Assembly (NCBI GenBank): GCA_021295715.1
Contig: JAGWBV010000032.1
Span: 1-56,255 of the forward strand
Origin: Candidatus Poribacteria bacterium
GTDB taxonomy: Bacteria; Poribacteria; WGA-4E; WGA-3G
Direction of reading: 5' to 3'
DNA length: 56,255 nt
Under the pieces are notes generated by a model. It was not told the DNA's origin. It made no database searches and worked only from the letters and a program-made list of their open reading frames with translations. Of the stretch, positions 27,089 to 42,013 are shown in pieces (the stretch's first letter is position 1; the number at the start of each line of letters is the position of its first letter). The translations under genes and the position numbers were made by a program.

Positions 27089-27109
27089 CACAACGGCTAA
27101 AGCCGTGTG
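27089..27109 (-). ncRNA. Right-end hairpin and likely 3' end of the omega (re)RNA of TnpB
   Basis: The 21-nt hairpin overlaps the tnpB stop codon (TAG at 27097-27099). In IS605 elements the guide RNA comes from the 3' end of tnpB and the right end, with the guide being the sequence just outside the IS. Here it would be read on the minus strand from about 27250 to 27050. The exact end and guide cannot be fixed from one copy. Confidence 0.4.
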
Positions 27110-28332
27110 CTTCTTTGCTTCCTCGTGGGAGGCTTACTTGATTTGAGTCCCGAAAACGGTGACCACTTATCAAGTCTACACAGGTCAGGATGATACCTGA
27201 TACCCGCGGGGGATACCACCGCCCCGACTACAGGGTTAAAAAGGAAACCCTGATACTTCGTCAGAATGTTACTCGCACCTACAACGTCTCTGTGTCCTTG
27301 CCACTCGCATTGGCGACAATGGTAAGTCCTTTGAGAAGGTTTCTTTCTATGTCCGCAGGAAGGGCAGGTTTGAGACGTATAGGCTTCGTCCTCTGTATCA
27401 ACGTTGATACCTACGGCTTTTGCTTTGTAGGTAATCATGTTCTGAATTTTAGAGAACGCCCACTGGTGTAACTTCTGATTGGACCTGTTGCCATAGTTGA
27501 TAGATCGTCTAATATGCTTTAGATCTCCAATGACAATCGTTTCTATCTTTCGCTCTCGGCAAGAAGAAACAAAGCGTGACGTGATTTTATGGCGCATATC
27601 ACGCAACTGCGCGGTTAACTTCTGTAGGGTTCTATTTTTGACGCGTTTGAGTTTTTTCCAGCGTCTGCTATATCTAATGCACCGCGATAAGGCTTTATTG
27701 AGACTCGACTTAAATTTGTTCTGATACCTAACAACACTGCGGATTTGCCTACCATTGTAGATTTCGGAATGGAGACCGTCAAAATAACGATTGGGTGGAT
27801 TTCGCCCATATCTACAGCAACTGCCGACCCTACTTTTGCTTTCGCCTTTTTCGGAGTTGTGTCGTATGTTGCATGAAACTCGTATTGTTTTGTTGTTCGA
27901 TTATACACGAGTGAGACTTCGGCAGGCACGACCTTATGGAACTTTTTATCGATCTTTATCCAAAGCGGGTCTTGGTCTAATCCCATAGAAAGTTGTAGTT
28001 TCCCACGCTTATAGGAAATGCCCGTTGCTCGCCATGTGAACGTGTGAAACTTCCGTGTTTTGTTTGGCGGTTTCGCGTTCGGATTCGATTTTCGGTTGGC
28101 AAAGAAAGAACGTCTTGCTCCACAATAGTCGTCTATAATTGCCTGAACGCTATGGGCATGGCACGGATACTTTTTGAATTTGAGATATGCCTTGAGTCCC
28201 CTGTCCGAAAGCCAAAAACCTTTCTGCTCATGCGTTTGGAACGCAAGCGAAACGGTTTTAGAATAGATACGTCCACCGAGGCGTGGAAGTCGCTAAAATA
28301 TAGGTTCGGTATTCTTTCTTGGATTTAGACAC
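27097..28332 (-). pseudogene. tnpB: tnpB with two frameshifts
   Basis: About 410 codons long, the usual TnpB length. A GTG at 28332 overlaps the tnpA stop by 8 nt and gives VSKSKKEYRTYIL. The frame then shifts near 28293, continues as RLPRLGGRIYSKT...KVGSAVAVDMGEIHP, and shifts again near 27785, continuing as FDGLHSEIYNGRQI to the stop at 27097. RuvC-I is AVDMG. The zinc finger is CPSC...CRQC, followed by HRDVVGASNIL with the RuvC-III Asp. RuvC-II reads IVIGDLKHI, with Gly where the usual IEDL glutamate stands. The two shifts make the gene non-functional as assembled; sequencing error cannot be excluded. Confidence 0.75.
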
Positions 28333-28738
28333 TCTTTTGATCCTCGATATATTCTTTGACGACTTTTAGAGATACACAGCCCACAGATGATATGAACTTT
28401 GAACGCGTCCAAAGGGAAGGTAAGCGGGATTTAAGGTGTGGGAACTCTTCTCTGAGTATCCGAGACGTATAACCTTTGATTAATCCCACGATCCGAGTAA
28501 TAGGCACTTTCGGATTGTTCTCAAGTATCAGGTGTACGTGGTCTTCCATAATCTCACTGGCACGCACTTTGAAATCTAATTCTGTTTGTTTGGAGCAGAT
28601 TAAATGGTGCAAACGCTCTTGGATAGACGCGTCTAAAACTTTGCGTCTGTATTTGGTACACCAGATAATGTGATATTGACAACTATAAACCATGTGGGTA
28701 TCTGAATACCAATCTTTTTCGGGGTTCTTGATAAACAT
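28325..28738 (-). CDS. tnpA: Y1 HUH transposase of the IS200/IS605 family
   Basis: A 137-residue single-strand transposase. The metal-binding HUH motif is H67-V-H69 in EDHVHLILE. The catalytic tyrosine is most likely Y130 in VVKEYIEDQ. The N-terminal MVYSCQYHIIWCTKYRRKVL is the family signature. The gene is complete, in contrast to the tnpB beside it. TnpA excises and inserts the element as single-stranded circles and could act on the copy here. Its stop overlaps the tnpB start. Confidence 0.9.
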   Translation of the reverse strand: MFIKNPEKDWYSDTHMVYSCQYHIIWCTKYRRKVLDASIQERLHHLICSKQTELDFKVRASEIMEDHVHLILENNPKVPITRIVGLIKGYTSRILREEFPHLKSRLPSLWTRSKFISSVGCVSLKVVKEYIEDQKSV

Positions 28739-29333: not shown

Positions 29334-32300
29334 CTACCAATTATTAGAATCAGAGGTAGGTTTCCACCAAGGGGCGATTCGAGGAGTTGAACCTACTGGA
29401 AGTTTCTCACCTCGACAGTAGTCGCTGAATTTTCTCCCAAAAACTTTGACATCACGTTTCGTCTCTGTAGAGTGTCCCCATCGGTACCAAAATCGGTAAT
29501 GGAGCGCAGCAAGTTTAGGGTCGATGTCTTGTGGGTCCTCACCAAATTCCTCTTTTTCGATTTTACGATGCCACCATTGGGCAATAGGTGATAGAGCAGG
29601 CTTGATTTGCTCAAAAACAGCGGAAATTCGGAAAGGATCGCGCGTCTGTAAGGCTTTCCGATAGACTTCTTGACAACTTCGTTCCTGTTGTGCCACTTCA
29701 TAAGCCCAAGTAGCGTGTTCACGCACCCATCGACTTGAATCATTTAATTTCAATCCTTCAAGTTTCTCAATCGCTTCGTCCGTTCCAAACCACGGCAAAA
29801 TCGAAATACCCAGATTACGTTCCTTTGCATAAGGGCTCGCTAAATACTTCTCGGTCACCAACTTCCATAACTCTTTCTCCCCTCCCCCAGCTAAAGAGGC
29901 AAGGGTCATGAACATAATTTCTTCGTCGTTTAGGCACTCTTCTAAAAGTTCACGTCTGAGTTGACGGTGTTCAGGCGAGTTACAATACTCAACTTTCCAG
30001 AGTTGAGCGAGAAATGTTTCTACCCCACCGTACGCCCAAAAAATTGTTGTACCGCCTTTTGCCTTTGATTGACGGTAATATCGCATTGCGGTAGTAGGTT
30101 GGAAGCGCAATAACAGGCAGAGGATGTTATCCATGAAGTCATACGAGCCTCGGCAATACCATCCCGATTTGGAAAGTAAGTCCAGATATTCGATTGCCAA
30201 TTGTGAGAAATCGGTGGTGTTGTATGTCGCCCAAGTCTGAAGAACTTCTCGGTTGACCGTGAACCGTAACTCCTCGGCAGAATCATGGTTTTTCTCATCA
30301 CCTTGAAGAATTGAACACATCTGAGTTATCAGTTCCCTGCCCCACCGCGACAGATCATCCGTCCGATCTAGTGAGCAGAGAAAGGAACCCACAATTTCTA
30401 TTGGTAGCAATGGGACGAGTGTCTCATAGGACGGAACATCCTTACCTTCATAAATAGGAACTGTCAGCCTTCTGCTATTCTCGTGAAAAAGATGTTTTCT
30501 TATTTCCTTACTATTCAAAATTTCATCCAAGAACCGTTTTGGATCTGATAATGCCGACAACATCAATATGAATGTTCCAGCAGTTAAATCAGGTTTCCTC
30601 AGCTTTAACTCTTTCAACGCCCATGTTACTAACTCCTCATCAGTTTGATTTCCAAAGGCATAAAGGACCCTCCAATACTCTTGCTCTGGCAATTTTTTTG
30701 ACCCTTCGTTAGACATAGACCCATCATTAGTTGTTCCCGGATCAAGTGTTTCCAACTTTTGTTGTGCCAACTCTACAATTGGCTTCGGTAACAACTCCTC
30801 CAGTAAATATGGTAGCGGTTCATAACAAATTGATCTCCTAAGTGCTTCATGTGAAGATAGAAATTCAAACCAGTCTGTCAATACTTCCTCAGAGGCAGAA
30901 AAAAGAAGGGTTTCTGTCAGTAAGGAAGTCAAATGAATGGCATCGAATGATGAATTATCCGTTTGAGCATCTTGAACGAGACGCTGCTTCATTCCTAAAA
31001 TTGCTTCCATGATTCTTACGTTATCTTCCGGTTTAAAAACAAGTCCGTGAATTGACCGAAGTTTAAATTGTGCCCATTTTTGATTCAGAGTATTAAGTTT
31101 GAGATGGCAGGCAAGTTCTGCATAACTTTCAGGATCATACTTAGCAACCCACGGCAGTAGATTTTCTATACAAAAATCCTCAAGGGTCGCCCCCACACTC
31201 GATCCCAATTTAGCAGTTACTGATACATCTTGCAAAATCTTCTTGATTTCAACGATATCCTCATGGTGCCAATCAGGCAAATCTGTCCGAACCGCTAAAT
31301 AGTCGAGTCCGTGGTAATTACCGTTGGCTGCGGGTGAATCACCTATTAGTAAACGTTCCTGATTACGGATGCGATCAATATAAGGCTTAAAACGACGATT
31401 GTGTTGTTCTATAAAGGCATGTGTCTCTAATTCTTTCTTTGAGAGTGGACGTTGCAACAACGGCGGTAAATTCACAAGTAGACAATCCGCCAACCCGTAA
31501 ACCCCTCTTAATAATGATGCATCAGCTTGGGCTAATTCTGCTAACCAATGCAAATTACCTAAAACTTCCTCAGTGTATCCCCATCTCATCAATTTACCAA
31601 TTTCCTCAAAAAATCGTGTTCCTCTATTAAAGTTATCGTCAACATTTGCCTTGCTATGCAGGGTTGCGTAGCAACGTGTGAGTGTTTTTAAAAATTGACG
31701 CTCTGGTCTTTGAGATAAAATTGAGATTGCCGCGTCTAATAATCGGGATTGTATGTCATCCTTTTCCCGAGGAGACCGCTTCCCCTCGGTATGTGTATAA
31801 ACAACGTCTTCCGGTATATCATCAGTGTATATAGGCAGAAGCCATTTGGTAAGGCGCGATGCCAAACGATTAAGATCACCTTTCTTGTTTAACCAAGTTT
31901 TCGCCAGCGGGGCAATGAGGGCATCTTCATAATTTGGGGAATTGTGATACTCTAATTCAAATTCAACGACTTGTGCATAAGCATCCGGGTCTTTTTCTGC
32001 CCAAAACAATAGTCGTTCATCTGTAATTTGTGCATTGTGACTATGGAACCAAGCAAGCATCAAAGCAGCTCGTTTTTGCGACAATTGTTCTTGTGAAAGG
32101 TCAGTATTTGGAAATATAGCAGATAACTGTAGCGCGGCAAACAGTGCCTCTGTTCTCAGATCTTCTGAAAGAATTGGCTCAAGTTCTTGCTGAAAATGCT
32201 CAAGTAAATCTTCAATTCTGGTAAACTTTGTGTTATCAAAAAGGTGAGAGAGGTAAAGGGTCCAGCAAAGTAAAACATAATCAGCACTCAACTTTGCGTC

Positions 32301-34052
32301 AAATAGACCTGCTTTGCTTACAATGCGTTGTTCTTCTAAATCGCGCCTGATTTTGGAGTAGTCGGAAAAACACCCTTTAAGCAGTTGTCCAAGTTTCTCT
32401 GGTGCGGCATCAATTTTGTCCCATGCTATTTGTTTTGCGAGATTTGAAAAAAAATCTTTAGGATCTTCAGGACGAATCCAATCAAGTTTTTGTTTAATCT
32501 GTTGGTCAGAGCGCTTAATTTTGTCAGTTAAATCTGCCAATAAAACCATTTCCGGAGTGACGACAGCAAATGAACCAAGTTCATCTCGCAATTCAAGGCA
32601 TCTCTGAAAATATCGTGGAATTCTTGCAGTGTCTTTTAATGAATTTGGTAAGTCATCGGGTTGGAGTCCGTTTAGGATTAGCATCTTCTGTAGTTCGGAA
32701 TCATTAAAATGGTCAACAGGAATTTCATGGCATCGGCTCCACCAATCAGGATAGTCATTCAAAGGACGCGTAGTTAACAAAAAACGGACTCTACTTCCCC
32801 ACTCGTTCTCGTGCCTAAAGTATTCCGAGAGTATCCGATCTGCTGTCTCAAGGGCATCCCTTTCATTGACACCATCAAGTACAATAAGGGTTTTACGCCA
32901 GATTTTTGCAGGCTTGTTTTGCAGTTTAACGATTTTCCCTTGTTCGTAAGATGGATAGATTAAACTAAAACACGTGTAAAGCAAATCAAATATAGACTTG
33001 TGTCCTTTCCAGTCTTTACTATCTAACCAAAAAGCGACAATATTCTCGTTCTGACAGATCGAGTTCATCGCCTTGGCGGCAAGCCACGATTTTCCGTGTC
33101 CTTCCTTACCTTCAAGATAGCAGACAGGCTGCCCCGATGCCTCCCACCAATCTTTGATTTTTGATCCCAGCAGAGACCTTTCTATTGCTTGGGGTAAGTT
33201 GATAGGATTGAAACCTTTGTTTGTGCTAAAACGCTTAAGCAGGTATCTTTCAATGTCTTCTTGAACATGTTTTTGAGTTTGGATTCCATCTTTGAGCTTG
33301 TCTCGGAGTTCAGATGTTTTCTTGGTCGTTTCTAACTTATCCTTCTCTATTCCAACCCAGGCCAAGAATTGTTGACTGGTGTCTGAAAGGTCAAAGAATT
33401 CGTTGATGTCCTCCCAAAGGGTAACGCACAACGCTCCAAGTTCTGACAGATTATCCGTCAGTTCAAGAGTAACAATATCCAAGCCGGTTTCTTCTGAGAC
33501 AGCCTCCAATTCACCAAGCGACTGTGCAGAAATATCACGAGAAATAACCAAGACATAAACTTGAAGGTCTTGTAAATTTCTCTTTACTATATTAATGTCT
33601 CCCACAATTTCTACATCTCTAGGCTTTTTTCCGTCGCTGTAGTTCTTGGCTTGAATTGCTACTTCTCCTGTCATGTTCCTAGCGTCGCCACTTGGTTGAG
33701 TGCCGGATTTTGCGAGCACAAACGGAATTTCAAGAAGTAATTCTAGTAGCCTTGCAGCGAGTTCTTCAAAAGGCTCGCCTTTTTTGCGTCCTTTGTGTTG
33801 TTCGTCCAGTGATTGGATGAGTTCTTTTAGTTTTCTCCAACCTTGTTCTGCCGAAAGCGGGTCGCTCTGATCAACTGCTTCACTCTCGTCTGATGACAGA
33901 TTCTGACGTGATTTAAGATTAACCTGAACTTCCACCTCGAGGGTTTCGTCCCAATAATCAGAAAGGCTGTGCGTATCCCAAAATTCGCCTATCTCCTCTG
34001 GTGTTGCCTCGGGAGGGGGCATTGGATCTCGTTTTTTATCTTTGTCTTCCAT
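29334..34052 (-). CDS. Antitoxin-like/Mrr nuclease/STAND (NACHT) NTPase fusion, Avs-like defence protein
   Basis: A 1572-residue multidomain protein. Residues about 15-50 (EEIGEFWDTHSLSDYWDETLEVEVQVNLKSR) match the C-terminal part of BrnA/CopG-like antitoxins, which normally stand alone beside BrnT. Residues about 93-200 form an Mrr-like restriction nuclease: FEELAARLLELL, D123 in SGDAR, then the QxK motif Q134-A-K136. Residues about 285-480 are a STAND/NACHT ATPase: Walker A GKEGHGKS (315-322), Walker B LIVLDGVNE (389-397) and the sensor arginine LLTTRP. About 1000 residues of helical repeats follow, the position of the ligand sensor in Avs/NLR proteins. The start overlaps the BrnT-like gene by 17 nt. 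The gene is AT-richer than its neighbours and lies next to an IS, suggesting transfer. Anti-phage function is inferred. Confidence 0.8.
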   Translation of the reverse strand: MEDKDKKRDPMPPPEATPEEIGEFWDTHSLSDYWDETLEVEVQVNLKSRQNLSSDESEAVDQSDPLSAEQGWRKLKELIQSLDEQHKGRKKGEPFEELAARLLELLLEIPFVLAKSGTQPSGDARNMTGEVAIQAKNYSDGKKPRDVEIVGDINIVKRNLQDLQVYVLVISRDISAQSLGELEAVSEETGLDIVTLELTDNLSELGALCVTLWEDINEFFDLSDTSQQFLAWVGIEKDKLETTKKTSELRDKLKDGIQTQKHVQEDIERYLLKRFSTNKGFNPINLPQAIERSLLGSKIKDWWEASGQPVCYLEGKEGHGKSWLAAKAMNSICQNENIVAFWLDSKDWKGHKSIFDLLYTCFSLIYPSYEQGKIVKLQNKPAKIWRKTLIVLDGVNERDALETADRILSEYFRHENEWGSRVRFLLTTRPLNDYPDWWSRCHEIPVDHFNDSELQKMLILNGLQPDDLPNSLKDTARIPRYFQRCLELRDELGSFAVVTPEMVLLADLTDKIKRSDQQIKQKLDWIRPEDPKDFFSNLAKQIAWDKIDAAPEKLGQLLKGCFSDYSKIRRDLEEQRIVSKAGLFDAKLSADYVLLCWTLYLSHLFDNTKFTRIEDLLEHFQQELEPILSEDLRTEALFAALQLSAIFPNTDLSQEQLSQKRAALMLAWFHSHNAQITDERLLFWAEKDPDAYAQVVEFELEYHNSPNYEDALIAPLAKTWLNKKGDLNRLASRLTKWLLPIYTDDIPEDVVYTHTEGKRSPREKDDIQSRLLDAAISILSQRPERQFLKTLTRCYATLHSKANVDDNFNRGTRFFEEIGKLMRWGYTEEVLGNLHWLAELAQADASLLRGVYGLADCLLVNLPPLLQRPLSKKELETHAFIEQHNRRFKPYIDRIRNQERLLIGDSPAANGNYHGLDYLAVRTDLPDWHHEDIVEIKKILQDVSVTAKLGSSVGATLEDFCIENLLPWVAKYDPESYAELACHLKLNTLNQKWAQFKLRSIHGLVFKPEDNVRIMEAILGMKQRLVQDAQTDNSSFDAIHLTSLLTETLLFSASEEVLTDWFEFLSSHEALRRSICYEPLPYLLEELLPKPIVELAQQKLETLDPGTTNDGSMSNEGSKKLPEQEYWRVLYAFGNQTDEELVTWALKELKLRKPDLTAGTFILMLSALSDPKRFLDEILNSKEIRKHLFHENSRRLTVPIYEGKDVPSYETLVPLLPIEIVGSFLCSLDRTDDLSRWGRELITQMCSILQGDEKNHDSAEELRFTVNREVLQTWATYNTTDFSQLAIEYLDLLSKSGWYCRGSYDFMDNILCLLLRFQPTTAMRYYRQSKAKGGTTIFWAYGGVETFLAQLWKVEYCNSPEHRQLRRELLEECLNDEEIMFMTLASLAGGGEKELWKLVTEKYLASPYAKERNLGISILPWFGTDEAIEKLEGLKLNDSSRWVREHATWAYEVAQQERSCQEVYRKALQTRDPFRISAVFEQIKPALSPIAQWWHRKIEKEEFGEDPQDIDPKLAALHYRFWYRWGHSTETKRDVKVFGRKFSDYCRGEKLPVGSTPRIAPWWKPTSDSNNW

Positions 34053-34323
34053 AATTTCTTCGCTCCGTTCTGGTCATATCCCTTGCGCTGATAATCAACG
34101 CCCGACGATTTGGTTTTTGAATAAAAAAAATGATGAGATACCGTCCCGCGTCGGTTTGTCCCATAGCTGAGTAAACATCTTCACCAGACCGATTGCCTTT
34201 AGAGACGAAACGAAAACGAGGACGATTGGTTAAGACTTCTTCAACTTCCGTTTTTTCTACACCATGCTTTGTCGCTAATTTCTCAACAAATTGTTGCTGC
34301 CATATAATCTCATCAATCCGCAA
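34036..34323 (-). CDS. BrnT-like type II toxin (RelE-fold)
   Basis: A 95-residue protein of the BrnT/DUF497-like group. The opening MRIDEIIWQQQFVEKLATKHG, the central EEVLTNRPRFRFVSKGNRSGEDVYSAMGQTDAGRYLIIFF and the ending IISARDMTRTERRNYGRQR correspond to the usual fold, with basic residues and the SAR-x6-ER-x-Y tail. BrnT cleaves RNA or blocks translation and is neutralised by a downstream BrnA antitoxin. Here the downstream gene is the Mrr-STAND fusion carrying an antitoxin-like N terminus, overlapping by 17 nt. The start is TTG at 34323 with GGAG 7 nt before it. No separate antitoxin gene is present. Confidence 0.75.
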   Translation of the reverse strand: MRIDEIIWQQQFVEKLATKHGVEKTEVEEVLTNRPRFRFVSKGNRSGEDVYSAMGQTDAGRYLIIFFIQKPNRRALIISARDMTRTERRNYGRQR

Positions 34324-34399: not shown

Positions 34400-34437
34400 G
34401 TGCAGAGTCAGGCGAGTGCCATACACTTTCCTGACTC
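34400..34437 (-). terminator. Intrinsic terminator between the TRAP operon and the BrnT/STAND locus
   Basis: On the minus strand GAGTCAGG (34437-34430) and CCTGACTC (34412-34405) form an 8-bp stem with a 17-nt loop, followed by TGCACTTTTTTAAT. It lies 280 nt after the DctP stop and 80 nt before the toxin start, so it should separate the two transcripts. The rest of 34324-34717 holds a CTCCGATTCCCGAC-type palindrome (about 34555-34615) and no gene. Confidence 0.6.
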
Positions 34438-34717
34438 TCTCCTTGCAGCATTATATCACATCATTCAGTGTCTTGGCAACATTTCATCAATATACCAGAG
34501 TCATTCAATTTTGGATTTTTTAACCATTTTGGTTGGAAAGTTGCGATTCAAAGGTCGCGTCTACTGGAGTATGTCGGGAATCGGAGTTCCCTCCTACAGG
34601 AGAACTGAATGCCTCTGCCAAGGTGAAGCAAAACAGAACTTATATAAATTTGATAAGCGCGCTGTCAAAGCGCGCCTATCGACAAAAGATCATTGGCGGA
34701 TTGCTGACCGCTATCCC

Positions 34718-38109: not shown

Positions 38110-41100
38110 TTAGAACATGCGATCCAAGCGCAAAATGATGATCGGATTTCGTAAGGAGAAAGATGAATTCAGTGGTTCTGCTACCTCAAGCGCAAGGCTC
38201 CATGGTGGCGGATTTCCGAACGGATCCCAAAAAACGGAGCATCCAATCCCAACAGACGTCTTCAACCGTGTCATAAAATTTTCAAAATCAGAAAATGGGG
38301 CATCGTCATACCACCATATACTACCCGCATCCAAGAAGCAACTGAGTGTCCACCCAAGGACACCATCTTGTTCGTTGGGAATTGTTTCTTTGATGAGCCG
38401 ATACTCAAGGTTAAGTAGGAGCCGATTATCCCCGGCGAATACATTAGAATCGTGACCGCGCACGGTATTACCACCCCCAAGGTGAAGGAGCCGTTGCCTT
38501 GGCAAGGGAGCATCAGAAAAATCACCTGCAATCCGAATATTCAGATGGTGTGAGCCGGACAAAGGTGTGTAGCGTGTCAACTCAAACCGATAGAAATTGA
38601 AGGCGTGGTCCCCACCGAAACTGTTCCCTGCTATCTCAACGGCGAAGTGTCCGCGCCATCCGCGTCGGGTCCGCTCATTTGCGGAAAACAGCGTGTGGAA
38701 ATGTCGTGTGGTCGTCGATCTGTGGTCTCGTGTATCAAACGCATAAACGAGAGAAAGACTTCTCAATTGTCCACGATTAATGCGTGAGTTTCCCCGCTTA
38801 ATCAGATTTCGGTTTAAGTAACTCCAATCCGTAGATTTGGAAAGGTTGTCGTGCCTTTCCCCAGTGAATTCCAGTCTAAGATACGACCATTCTGATGGCG
38901 CATAGGTTATCCATCCCTGAGACCCCTGACGTTGATAATAATCTTGAAATGCTGAACCATAATAGGAGGCACTCAGGCTGGCATTACCTTGATGTAGATA
39001 GAGATTAGAACTGACATCGGTGAGCTTATAGAAACTCCCTCCAAATTTGAGCATCTGCCTCTTAAAAAACCCTTTCTCAATACCGGCATGGTAGTTCCAT
39101 ATTTTGCTCGAAAATCCACGACTTATTGAACCGAAAACCTGTTCTTTACCCGTGAGGCGCGTCGAGAGTGTCCCACCCGCACCAAGCATTAATCCGTGAA
39201 CACGATTGAATTGAAGAATCGGGAAACCACCCGGTCTCGCGAACGGCTGCTCTTCAATGTCAACAATCATGACGTTTTTTCCACCCTCACGTTGAACATG
39301 CCAATTCCGAACCGATTTGAAATGCTCACTGTTTTTGCTGAGCTCCCGACGCATACCGTTTATCTTTGATTGACCGAGCGCATGATGGTAAATTTCTGGG
39401 GCTTGTGAATCTCCTACTCCATCACTATTTCCAGTGCTTAGGTTAAGTGCTGACAACAGTTCCGCTCGTGGGATTCGACTGTTTCCAGTGAAACGAATCT
39501 CGTGCAGGGTTCCCTCGTCAATGCTAAATTCCAAGACATCGTTGTCAAGTCGATGTGTGACAGTGGCGAATTCATAACCACGATTTACGTAAAAATCAGC
39601 AATTAATCGTTGCTTCAATCTAACAATGGTAGCGGCAAAATAGCCGGATTCTAAATGAAACCACTCCTTGATGAATCGTGAAGGGAAACTCCTGTTCCCT
39701 TCAATCTTAATTTGCTGAGCGAAAAGCACAGGGGCTTCCGTGACTCGAATATGCAAACTGACACTTGGAACGGAATCGGTTGGAAGGTTGGAAGAAGGGA
39801 AGGTTGGGTCCCCTTCCTCATCTTCCAGTCTTCCACCCTTTCGCTCTTCCATTCCAGTCTCTTGCTGATTGCTGACCGCTGATTGCTGACCGCTGTTGGC
39901 TTCTTCACTATCCCTCTCCACCTGCCGAGTTTCCAAACGCACATCTTGAAACCAATCCTGTTCCCTCAACTCTGCGATGAGCCAAGAAAGTTGCGGACTT
40001 GTGATAACATCTTCAGGCTGAATGGGAAGGGATTGTTGAACGACTTCTGTCGGAATAGTGGTATTCCCCTTGATTTCAAGGGTCGCAACCCGGATCTTAG
40101 TTTCGGATGCGAAGTCTGTAGAAGCGAGTGGTAGCGTAATGAATTCCAAAAGCCCCATTGCTGAACCATAACGTCCGGCAAGTGGGCCTGTATACTCTTG
40201 TGGCGAATGCGGCCACCACGGACGCTCGGTATCGTAAATTGGCAGCCAATAACTATATTCTCTGGATGTGGCAGGAATAAGACTCGCTATATTGCTACTA
40301 TGCATCTTACGATGGATGTTAAAAAGCCACTTGTTTTCAAAAGAGAGAGTTGACTGCGGATCCATTTTTGGTGAAGGTTCCAACATTTTACGCGGAAGAG
40401 CAATCTCAAGGCTCCAAAAAGTAGCGTTAATTTGACTTCCAACTTTTGCATTTGAATCCCACGCGCTGTCCGCCTTGAACGCCGTTTGCATCGTTTTTCG
40501 ATTTAAAGTGAGTTGGACATCATGCGGCGCGAACTGGAAACTCGGTTCTCCAGGCGTGTTGACCTGCTGGTCAAAATACGCGCGAATCGGGTTAATAACA
40601 AGGTGATAGTAAACATCAGTTTTCGGATTCGGATCAATCAGGATTTCAATACACTCGTCTTCCCAAATTGGTGAATCATGCTGGGTCTGTGAAATATACG
40701 GAAGCAGCGAATCGGACATGTACGCCTTTACACCGACATAGAAATTCTCGGTATCCCACAATAAAAAAGTTTCAGTTGAATTGCTTGGAACATCGGTGCC
40801 ATCTGGGTTTTGGAACGGAGAGAGTCGCGCAGCGGATTGCCACGCGATTTCAGATAAATTTCCATCAATAGTGGGCGGTTCTGCTGCGTGCGGGACGGGT
40901 TGAGCGAAATCTATGGTGAGATCCGTTTCAGCATCTGCGGATGTATTGCCGCCGCTTGTTGATCTCGGTAGGAGGGAAATCGCGTTGGTGGCTTTCAACC
41001 GAAACAGCGGTCCGCCATCGTTAATAATGGTCAGCCCCGTTTCGTCGTCAAATTGTGCGGGCAAATTAACAACGATCTGCTGTTTCTCACTCTCAAGTTC

Positions 41101-41925
41101 AATATCCGCGGCATAATTTTCGGGAAGTCGTAAACGGATGCTACCGCCTTGTGCGGTTATATCCATCGGTGTGGCAACAGGGTCAAGGACCACCAGTCCA
41201 ATTGAGCCATTCTGGGTCTCCAACTTGTTTTCTCCGTGGGTCAACAAAATTTTTCCGTCAATGTTGCCCTTGGTGACACGGATGTTATAATTGCCTAAGG
41301 TTTCATTTAAATGGATGTTCCCCGTCTCCGTTGAGGCTTCTATCTTTCCACGGATACGCTGAAGAGATATATCTCCGGTTTTGGCATAGAGCTTAACAGA
41401 AACATCCGGTGGCGTTTTGATTGTACATTTCAGTTGGAGTCCATCATAGCGCACTTCTTGTAATGCTATCGTGTTGGAAAGCGAGTTCGGCTGTGTTTCA
41501 GCGGACGTGTCCGGTAGTTGTATCCTTAACTGGAGTGTGTCATTGCTTTGCGTTCCTGTAAAGGTGATGTTATCAAGATAGTCTCGGATCAGATCGTCCT
41601 GTTGTGTATTTGTGGTTTCCCGTGCCTGCTTCTCAAGTGTAACGGTGATGACCTCGTCTTCTGTGGCAATCAGTTCGATATTACCCGATATATTCAAGCT
41701 GAGTTCTATATGATAAACATCTGCAAAACTGAAGGTTTTTGTTGACGCTGCCCCCACTATCAATGTCTGGGTTTCACGAATTGAATCGTTGACGGGTGGA
41801 GGCGGTGTGCTTCCTTCGCCTTCATGATCCGCCGCGTATGTATGCTGGACTGGTAAATTCAGCGTGAGCATGAAAAAATAAAATAGATATGAGTAAGAGA
41901 AAATCGTGCGAGATATGGGCAACAT
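38110..41925 (-). CDS. Chimeric outer-membrane protein: DUF4097-like, CBM9-like and Omp85 domains
   Basis: A 1271-residue exported protein. The signal peptide is FSYSYLFYFFMLTLNLPVQHTYA. Residues about 40-330 are a DUF4097-type beta repeat (GKIEASTETGNIHLNETLGNYNIRVTKGNIDGKILLTHGENKLETQNGSIGL). Residues about 345-560 are a CBM9-like domain (PPTIDGNLSEIAWQSAARLSPF, WEDECIEILIDPNPKTDVYYHLV). Residues about 610-840 contain POTRA-like repeats. The last 370 are an Omp85 barrel ending in IIILRLDRMF. Between the POTRAs (about residues 680-730) lies a low-complexity segment encoded by an inserted repeat. ATG 41925 has AAGGA upstream; a GTG at 42006 with a promoter 7 nt before it is the alternative. 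I have not seen this architecture described. Confidence 0.75.
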   Translation of the reverse strand: MLPISRTIFSYSYLFYFFMLTLNLPVQHTYAADHEGEGSTPPPPVNDSIRETQTLIVGAASTKTFSFADVYHIELSLNISGNIELIATEDEVITVTLEKQARETTNTQQDDLIRDYLDNITFTGTQSNDTLQLRIQLPDTSAETQPNSLSNTIALQEVRYDGLQLKCTIKTPPDVSVKLYAKTGDISLQRIRGKIEASTETGNIHLNETLGNYNIRVTKGNIDGKILLTHGENKLETQNGSIGLVVLDPVATPMDITAQGGSIRLRLPENYAADIELESEKQQIVVNLPAQFDDETGLTIINDGGPLFRLKATNAISLLPRSTSGGNTSADAETDLTIDFAQPVPHAAEPPTIDGNLSEIAWQSAARLSPFQNPDGTDVPSNSTETFLLWDTENFYVGVKAYMSDSLLPYISQTQHDSPIWEDECIEILIDPNPKTDVYYHLVINPIRAYFDQQVNTPGEPSFQFAPHDVQLTLNRKTMQTAFKADSAWDSNAKVGSQINATFWSLEIALPRKMLEPSPKMDPQSTLSFENKWLFNIHRKMHSSNIASLIPATSREYSYWLPIYDTERPWWPHSPQEYTGPLAGRYGSAMGLLEFITLPLASTDFASETKIRVATLEIKGNTTIPTEVVQQSLPIQPEDVITSPQLSWLIAELREQDWFQDVRLETRQVERDSEEANSGQQSAVSNQQETGMEERKGGRLEDEEGDPTFPSSNLPTDSVPSVSLHIRVTEAPVLFAQQIKIEGNRSFPSRFIKEWFHLESGYFAATIVRLKQRLIADFYVNRGYEFATVTHRLDNDVLEFSIDEGTLHEIRFTGNSRIPRAELLSALNLSTGNSDGVGDSQAPEIYHHALGQSKINGMRRELSKNSEHFKSVRNWHVQREGGKNVMIVDIEEQPFARPGGFPILQFNRVHGLMLGAGGTLSTRLTGKEQVFGSISRGFSSKIWNYHAGIEKGFFKRQMLKFGGSFYKLTDVSSNLYLHQGNASLSASYYGSAFQDYYQRQGSQGWITYAPSEWSYLRLEFTGERHDNLSKSTDWSYLNRNLIKRGNSRINRGQLRSLSLVYAFDTRDHRSTTTRHFHTLFSANERTRRGWRGHFAVEIAGNSFGGDHAFNFYRFELTRYTPLSGSHHLNIRIAGDFSDAPLPRQRLLHLGGGNTVRGHDSNVFAGDNRLLLNLEYRLIKETIPNEQDGVLGWTLSCFLDAGSIWWYDDAPFSDFENFMTRLKTSVGIGCSVFWDPFGNPPPWSLALEVAEPLNSSFSLRNPIIILRLDRMF
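39768..39902. repeat. Composite repeat inserted in frame in the Omp85 chimera
   Basis: GGTTGGAAGGTTGGAAGAAG at the left and TTGCTGATTGCTGACCGCTG at the right. The same bipartite element, with TTGGAAGG units then CTTCTTCCAGTTCC and heptanucleotide units, lies in the unrelated GT39 gene at 44715-44868. Confidence 0.65.
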
Positions 41926-42013
41926 TCCGGGGAGGTTCCTTTTAATCCGGGATATATGACAATGCAATATCGGTTTGTAAACCCTGACTACAGAATTGCT
42001 TGACACATTTTAA

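Follow-up and report, generated by a model that had tools for sequence, protein, structure and literature searches.

A BrnT toxin gene overlapping a nuclease-STAND gene that begins with half an antitoxin in Poribacteria: a candidate tethering operon

Avs proteins have an N-terminal nuclease, a STAND NTPase and a long helical C terminus. BrnA antitoxins (COG5304/COG3514) carry a C-terminal ribbon-helix-helix (RHH) region, as described in two studies (PMC2701414; PMC11980606). The brnTA fusions described in the accessible text of the second link BrnT to BrnA, RHH or HTH, and a fusion to a STAND protein is absent among them (PMC11980606). Toxins have also been linked to larger immune systems: a type I RM enzyme keeps the latent anticodon nuclease PrrC silent (PMC2610378), and HicA/HicB occur in diverse defense contexts in which a toxin domain or the toxin-antitoxin (TA) pair is fused to larger proteins (PMC10865869). 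In the open-access literature, we did not find an antitoxin half on a STAND protein, the arrangement described below.

The window analyzed here is a 56,255-nucleotide stretch of Candidatus Poribacteria DNA (assembly GCA_021295715.1, contig JAGWBV010000032.1). The group of Poribacteria to which it belongs is sponge associated, and the relatives of the locus are themselves Poribacteria. All genes of the locus lie on the minus strand. The original prediction described a 95-residue BrnT-like protein overlapping a 1572-residue protein by 17 nt, and both ORFs are found as it placed them: brnT (34036..34323; TTG start, GGAG upstream) and the large ORF (29334..34052; ATG start). The overlap (34036..34052) has the same offset at the majority of fused loci and in relatives with the canonical brnTA arrangement. 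The 95-amino-acid protein fits the BrnT_toxin profile PF04365, a family of RNase toxins, above cut-off (residues 14–87; E 1.3e-11, 45.1 bits versus 34.5). In our alignment of BrnTs (A4), H20 and E87 are invariant, K19 is nearly so (R in L172) and F37 is present; these residues of the window BrnT correspond, with numbering matched by eye, to the Lys, His, Phe and Glu reported to be important for BrnT activity (PMC10714953). Where full alignments could be made, the BrnTs of STAND loci are 80–97% identical, and the dN/dS of brnT (0.18) indicates purifying selection. A PDB sequence search returned no relatives of BrnT, and no PADLOC model matched either BrnT or the 1572-residue protein.

Upstream of brnT is a predicted promoter (34450..34479, minus strand; TTGCCA, 18 nt, (TG)TATAAT; 11 of 12 matches in our scan, with an extended −10), whose −35/−10 pair is kept in 12 aligned STAND loci, at the upstream edge of their shared homology. 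Since the DNA common to the STAND loci starts at this conserved promoter, promoter, brnT and STAND gene behave as a single unit. Between the promoter and brnT, the leader contains an imperfect, partly conserved 15-nt inverted repeat (34404..34438), which could possibly serve as an operator or form an mRNA hairpin. STAND loci are found in at least two chromosomal neighborhoods, with TRAP-transporter/corrinoid genes or with an ornithine-carbamoyltransferase-like gene (named by eye), and some adjoin other NACHT or type ISP restriction genes. At two loci, a second NACHT protein of ~800 amino acids is encoded directly upstream of the BrnT-STAND unit (L004:2965-5316 and L006:2893-5298). The locus had also been predicted to be AT-rich and next to an insertion sequence. 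An IS200/IS605-type element is indeed nearby, with a Y1 transposase (28325–28738) and a TnpB-like gene that survives as a remnant split into two ORFs (27097–27986); the composition leans in the expected direction, but only mildly (42% GC versus 46–48% around). We considered a mobile or phage-borne origin of the locus and rejected it, as searches of plasmids and viral contigs gave zero matches. Elsewhere in the window, a 1298-amino-acid ORF (38110–42006) appears by eye to combine a carbohydrate-binding-like region with a surface-antigen/POTRA-like one.

The predicted architecture of the large protein is borne out. After an N-terminal segment and a variable linker (residues 51–71; 33840..33902), it contains an Mrr-type nuclease domain (residues ~72–200; 33453..33839), a STAND/NACHT NTPase (residues ~290–460; 32673..33185; Walker A GKEGHGKS, Walker B LIVLDGVNE) and an all-helical C-terminal region, presumably the sensor (residues ~520–1572; 29337..32495). 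Across 14 orthologues there is no variation at the nuclease residues E96, D123, Q134 and K136, which form an Mrr/PD-(D/E)XK-type motif (Q134-x-K136), or at the Walker A and B residues. Of the Pfam profiles, NPHP3_N matches above cut-off (E 1.4e-6), NACHT falls just under it (E 1.4e-4) and Mrr_cat matches one orthologue weakly (E 0.22), while the nuclease-STAND region gave zero relatives in a PDB sequence search. AlphaFold2 models residues 621–1572 as all-helical (mean pLDDT 75, pTM 0.66), resembling generic helical solenoids. The model of residues 1–620 has alpha/beta topology in the nuclease part and matches NLR-type folds; as the model is poor (pLDDT 56), we treat these matches as no more than supportive. 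The proposed Avs label did not hold: PADLOC Avs/AVAST models went unmatched at E values up to 1 and the C terminus is a generic solenoid, so we dropped this assignment.

The N-terminal segment (residues 1–50; 33903..34052) is, as had been proposed, derived from an antitoxin. It aligns with free antitoxin relatives (L097 and L172), which make the conserved half, EEIxxFWDTHSLxDYWDE, clear, although STAND-fusion segments score below threshold against Pfam PF12441 (CopG_antitoxin). The fusion segments cover only positions ~9–45 of this 79-position model, whereas free relatives reach ~78 and, across the phylum, most PF12441 matches span the whole profile in frames of ~85–145 amino acids. By profile and alignment, the C-terminal RHH half is not found in the fusion, and the linker and Mrr domain stand in its place. 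Since the segment matches the first half of the profile and free relatives match all of it, the RHH half has been replaced, leaving half of a CopG/BrnA antitoxin rather than a BrnA. Searched against the PDB, the antitoxin alignment gave weak matches to the CopG repressor only, and these fall in its RHH half. Read-through or an internal start could have made the ORF longer than the true STAND gene, but the window's gene lacks start codons from residue 40 to the nuclease domain, ruling this out; a STAND protein without the segment should therefore not be made from it. Chance extension of the ORF is likewise excluded, since the segment stays open, with strong conservation, across 10 full-length orthologues.

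The segment is also the slowest-evolving part of the STAND fusions (dN/dS 0.036–0.07 versus 0.37 for the linker and 0.28 for the body; 0.036 for its 39 core codons, 95% CI 0.011–0.068). Its synonymous divergence is comparable (pS 0.40–0.42 versus 0.49), a value high enough to rule out, for STAND, that its conservation is a by-product of recent spread. The synonymous divergence of brnT is lower (pS 0.26), which hints at extra constraint or recombination.

Are toxin and segment inherited together? Full-length fused orthologues occur in 10 genomes and have BrnT just upstream in every case (9 intact and 1, L009, frameshifted). Four unfused orthologues lack the segment and have the nuclease domain at their very start (M...W-x-K-L-K), and BrnT accompanies none of them; the difference between the two groups is exactly BrnT plus the half-antitoxin. 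In a tree built from the body alone, a branch with SH-aLRT 96 separates the fused orthologues from the others, so a single acquisition suffices. Homologues lacking the segment or lacking BrnT had been named as evidence against the coupling; the orthologues found to lack one always lack both, which fits coupling instead. Among intact BrnTs of this subfamily, 17 of 17 (10 STAND, one of these on a gene truncated close to a contig edge; 4 DUF2806; 1 ArgC; and 2 free antitoxins) precede an in-frame half-antitoxin. The converse fails, as BrnT is missing beside many half-antitoxins. Such asymmetry is expected of a TA pair and is our main evidence that the fused half still neutralizes the toxin. Free antitoxin relatives with an RHH half are encoded within the genus at L097 and L125 and, elsewhere in the order, in a related family (L172–L174); L097 and L172 are free BrnTA pairs with the same overlap as in the window.

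The BrnT and half-antitoxin cassette is also found on DUF2806 proteins and ArgC, and the half-antitoxin alone on HsdS and FGE-sulfatase-like proteins. BrnT is retained mainly with STAND and with DUF2806, a second partner that adjoins type I RM genes (4 of 6 loci), and is mostly lost with HsdS, ArgC and FGE, sometimes leaving remnants. Between partner classes, the homologous DNA is sharply bounded and comprises either BrnT with the segment (about −290 to +150) or just the segment, and the segment tree requires several partner switches. When loci are compared, some of the fusions to HsdS, ArgC and FGE look as if they arose by deletion from a BrnT/half-antitoxin/DUF2806 cassette. On HsdS, with BrnT gone, the segment is still constrained (dN/dS 0.10, CI 0.05–0.20), so something besides BrnT may constrain it; this could reflect recent toxin loss or protection in trans. 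The type I RM HsdS genes with a half-antitoxin and no intact BrnT are at L094, L096, L098, L100, L104, L107, L109, L110, L115 and L116, and several half-antitoxin HsdS genes sit just after hsdM and HigBA-like TA genes. ArgC, an arginine-biosynthesis enzyme, carries the half-antitoxin at L119, L120, L112 and L113, with BrnT intact only at L120. At L175:1613-2788 (G056:C1 near 6065624), a separate, second PF12441 N-half (profile positions 2–38) is attached to an AMP-binding-domain protein, near which BrnT was not found.

If the segment retains toxin binding, how might the operon work? The domain identities, the replacement of the RHH half, the co-occurrence and the purifying selection on toxin and segment are established by sequence comparison; that the segment physically neutralizes BrnT is, on the same basis, very probable. 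The BrnT RNase would be held inactive by the toxin-binding half at the N terminus of the nuclease-STAND protein. Both genes would be transcribed from a single promoter and, through the 17-nt overlap, translationally coupled. With the RHH half lost, this antitoxin would have no DNA-binding autoregulation, so BrnT control would hinge on how much STAND protein is present or what state it is in. Loss, degradation, blockage or trigger-induced rearrangement of that protein would then release BrnT, whose RNA cleavage would back up the nuclease of the STAND protein itself. Such a tethering operon is the best explanation of the locus, and we lean slightly toward it. The cell probably depends on the sensor protein to keep the toxin quiet; whether BrnT release serves as a guard or second effector, as opposed to pure addiction, is uncertain, and we put the former at somewhat less than an even chance.

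In an addiction-only scheme, the fused half would neutralize BrnT and loss of the STAND gene would free the longer-lived toxin, with phage sensing releasing nothing. This is a serious contender, though we would not wager on it. It accords with the occurrence of the unit, homologous from its promoter through the gene, in two or more chromosomal neighborhoods and with the STAND remnant loci L127 and L122, at which BrnT is frameshifted or lost, and the same tether on a metabolic gene, ArgC, favors it. It does not predict the preference of BrnT for STAND and DUF2806, a pattern that favors a functional link, but the sample is small and its lineages are related. It is also conceivable, if rather doubtful, that the half-antitoxin is a portable guard tag on immune proteins (nuclease-STAND, DUF2806 and HsdS), whose disabling or triggering by phage frees the BrnT RNase. 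No immune role is obvious for the ArgC and FGE fusions, and they, together with the segments left on HsdS after BrnT loss, make some fusions look like deletion scars, which weakens the reading of the locus as an immune hybrid; we regard a role in addiction as about as possible as that reading.

Could the fused segment itself be such a scar, left after a TA cassette had landed upstream of genes and shed its RHH half by deletion, giving in-frame N-terminal tails without function in the host protein? The sharp edges at about −290 and +150 would follow, loci L103, L105, L106 and L108 and the type I RM loci resemble successive deletion products, with the FGE gene at L106 starting on its own, and even short remnant ORFs show low dN/dS (0.15). 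For the STAND fusion, however, this origin is improbable: the fusion is single and old, and has been kept through a pS of about 0.4–0.5 with a tail dN/dS of 0.04–0.07 beside a quickly evolving linker. Purifying selection also maintains BrnT, and a maintained toxin needs a functional antitoxin.

If the tethering operon that we favor is real, it suggests that the toxin-binding half of an antitoxin can be separated from the half that regulates and grafted onto large immune proteins, so that a latent RNase depends on whether a sensor is present or on what state it is in. Guard systems could then evolve along a simple molecular route, with the fused, unfused and decayed loci forming a natural set for testing guarding against addiction.

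Finally, the locus can be set against the systems with which we began. Like type II BrnT/BrnA modules (DUF497/COG2929 with COG5304/COG3514), it has the toxin gene first, the antitoxin second and overlapping, and a PF12441 N-half, but the RHH half is missing and a 1500-amino-acid nuclease-STAND protein takes its place. With Avs/AVAST and other STAND antiphage NTPases it shares a nuclease, a STAND NTPase and a long helical C terminus; it differs in having no PADLOC or PDB sequence match, a generic solenoid at the C terminus and a tethered toxin. PrrC, an RNase that an immune complex silences and, once blocked, releases, provides a precedent for guard logic, and the Poribacterial cassette too occurs in type I RM loci, although the toxin families are unrelated and the tether here is a covalently fused antitoxin half. 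As with HicA/HicB, TA domains have been recombined with larger proteins in defense islands; there the toxin domain or the TA pair is fused, whereas here the antitoxin half alone moves between partners.
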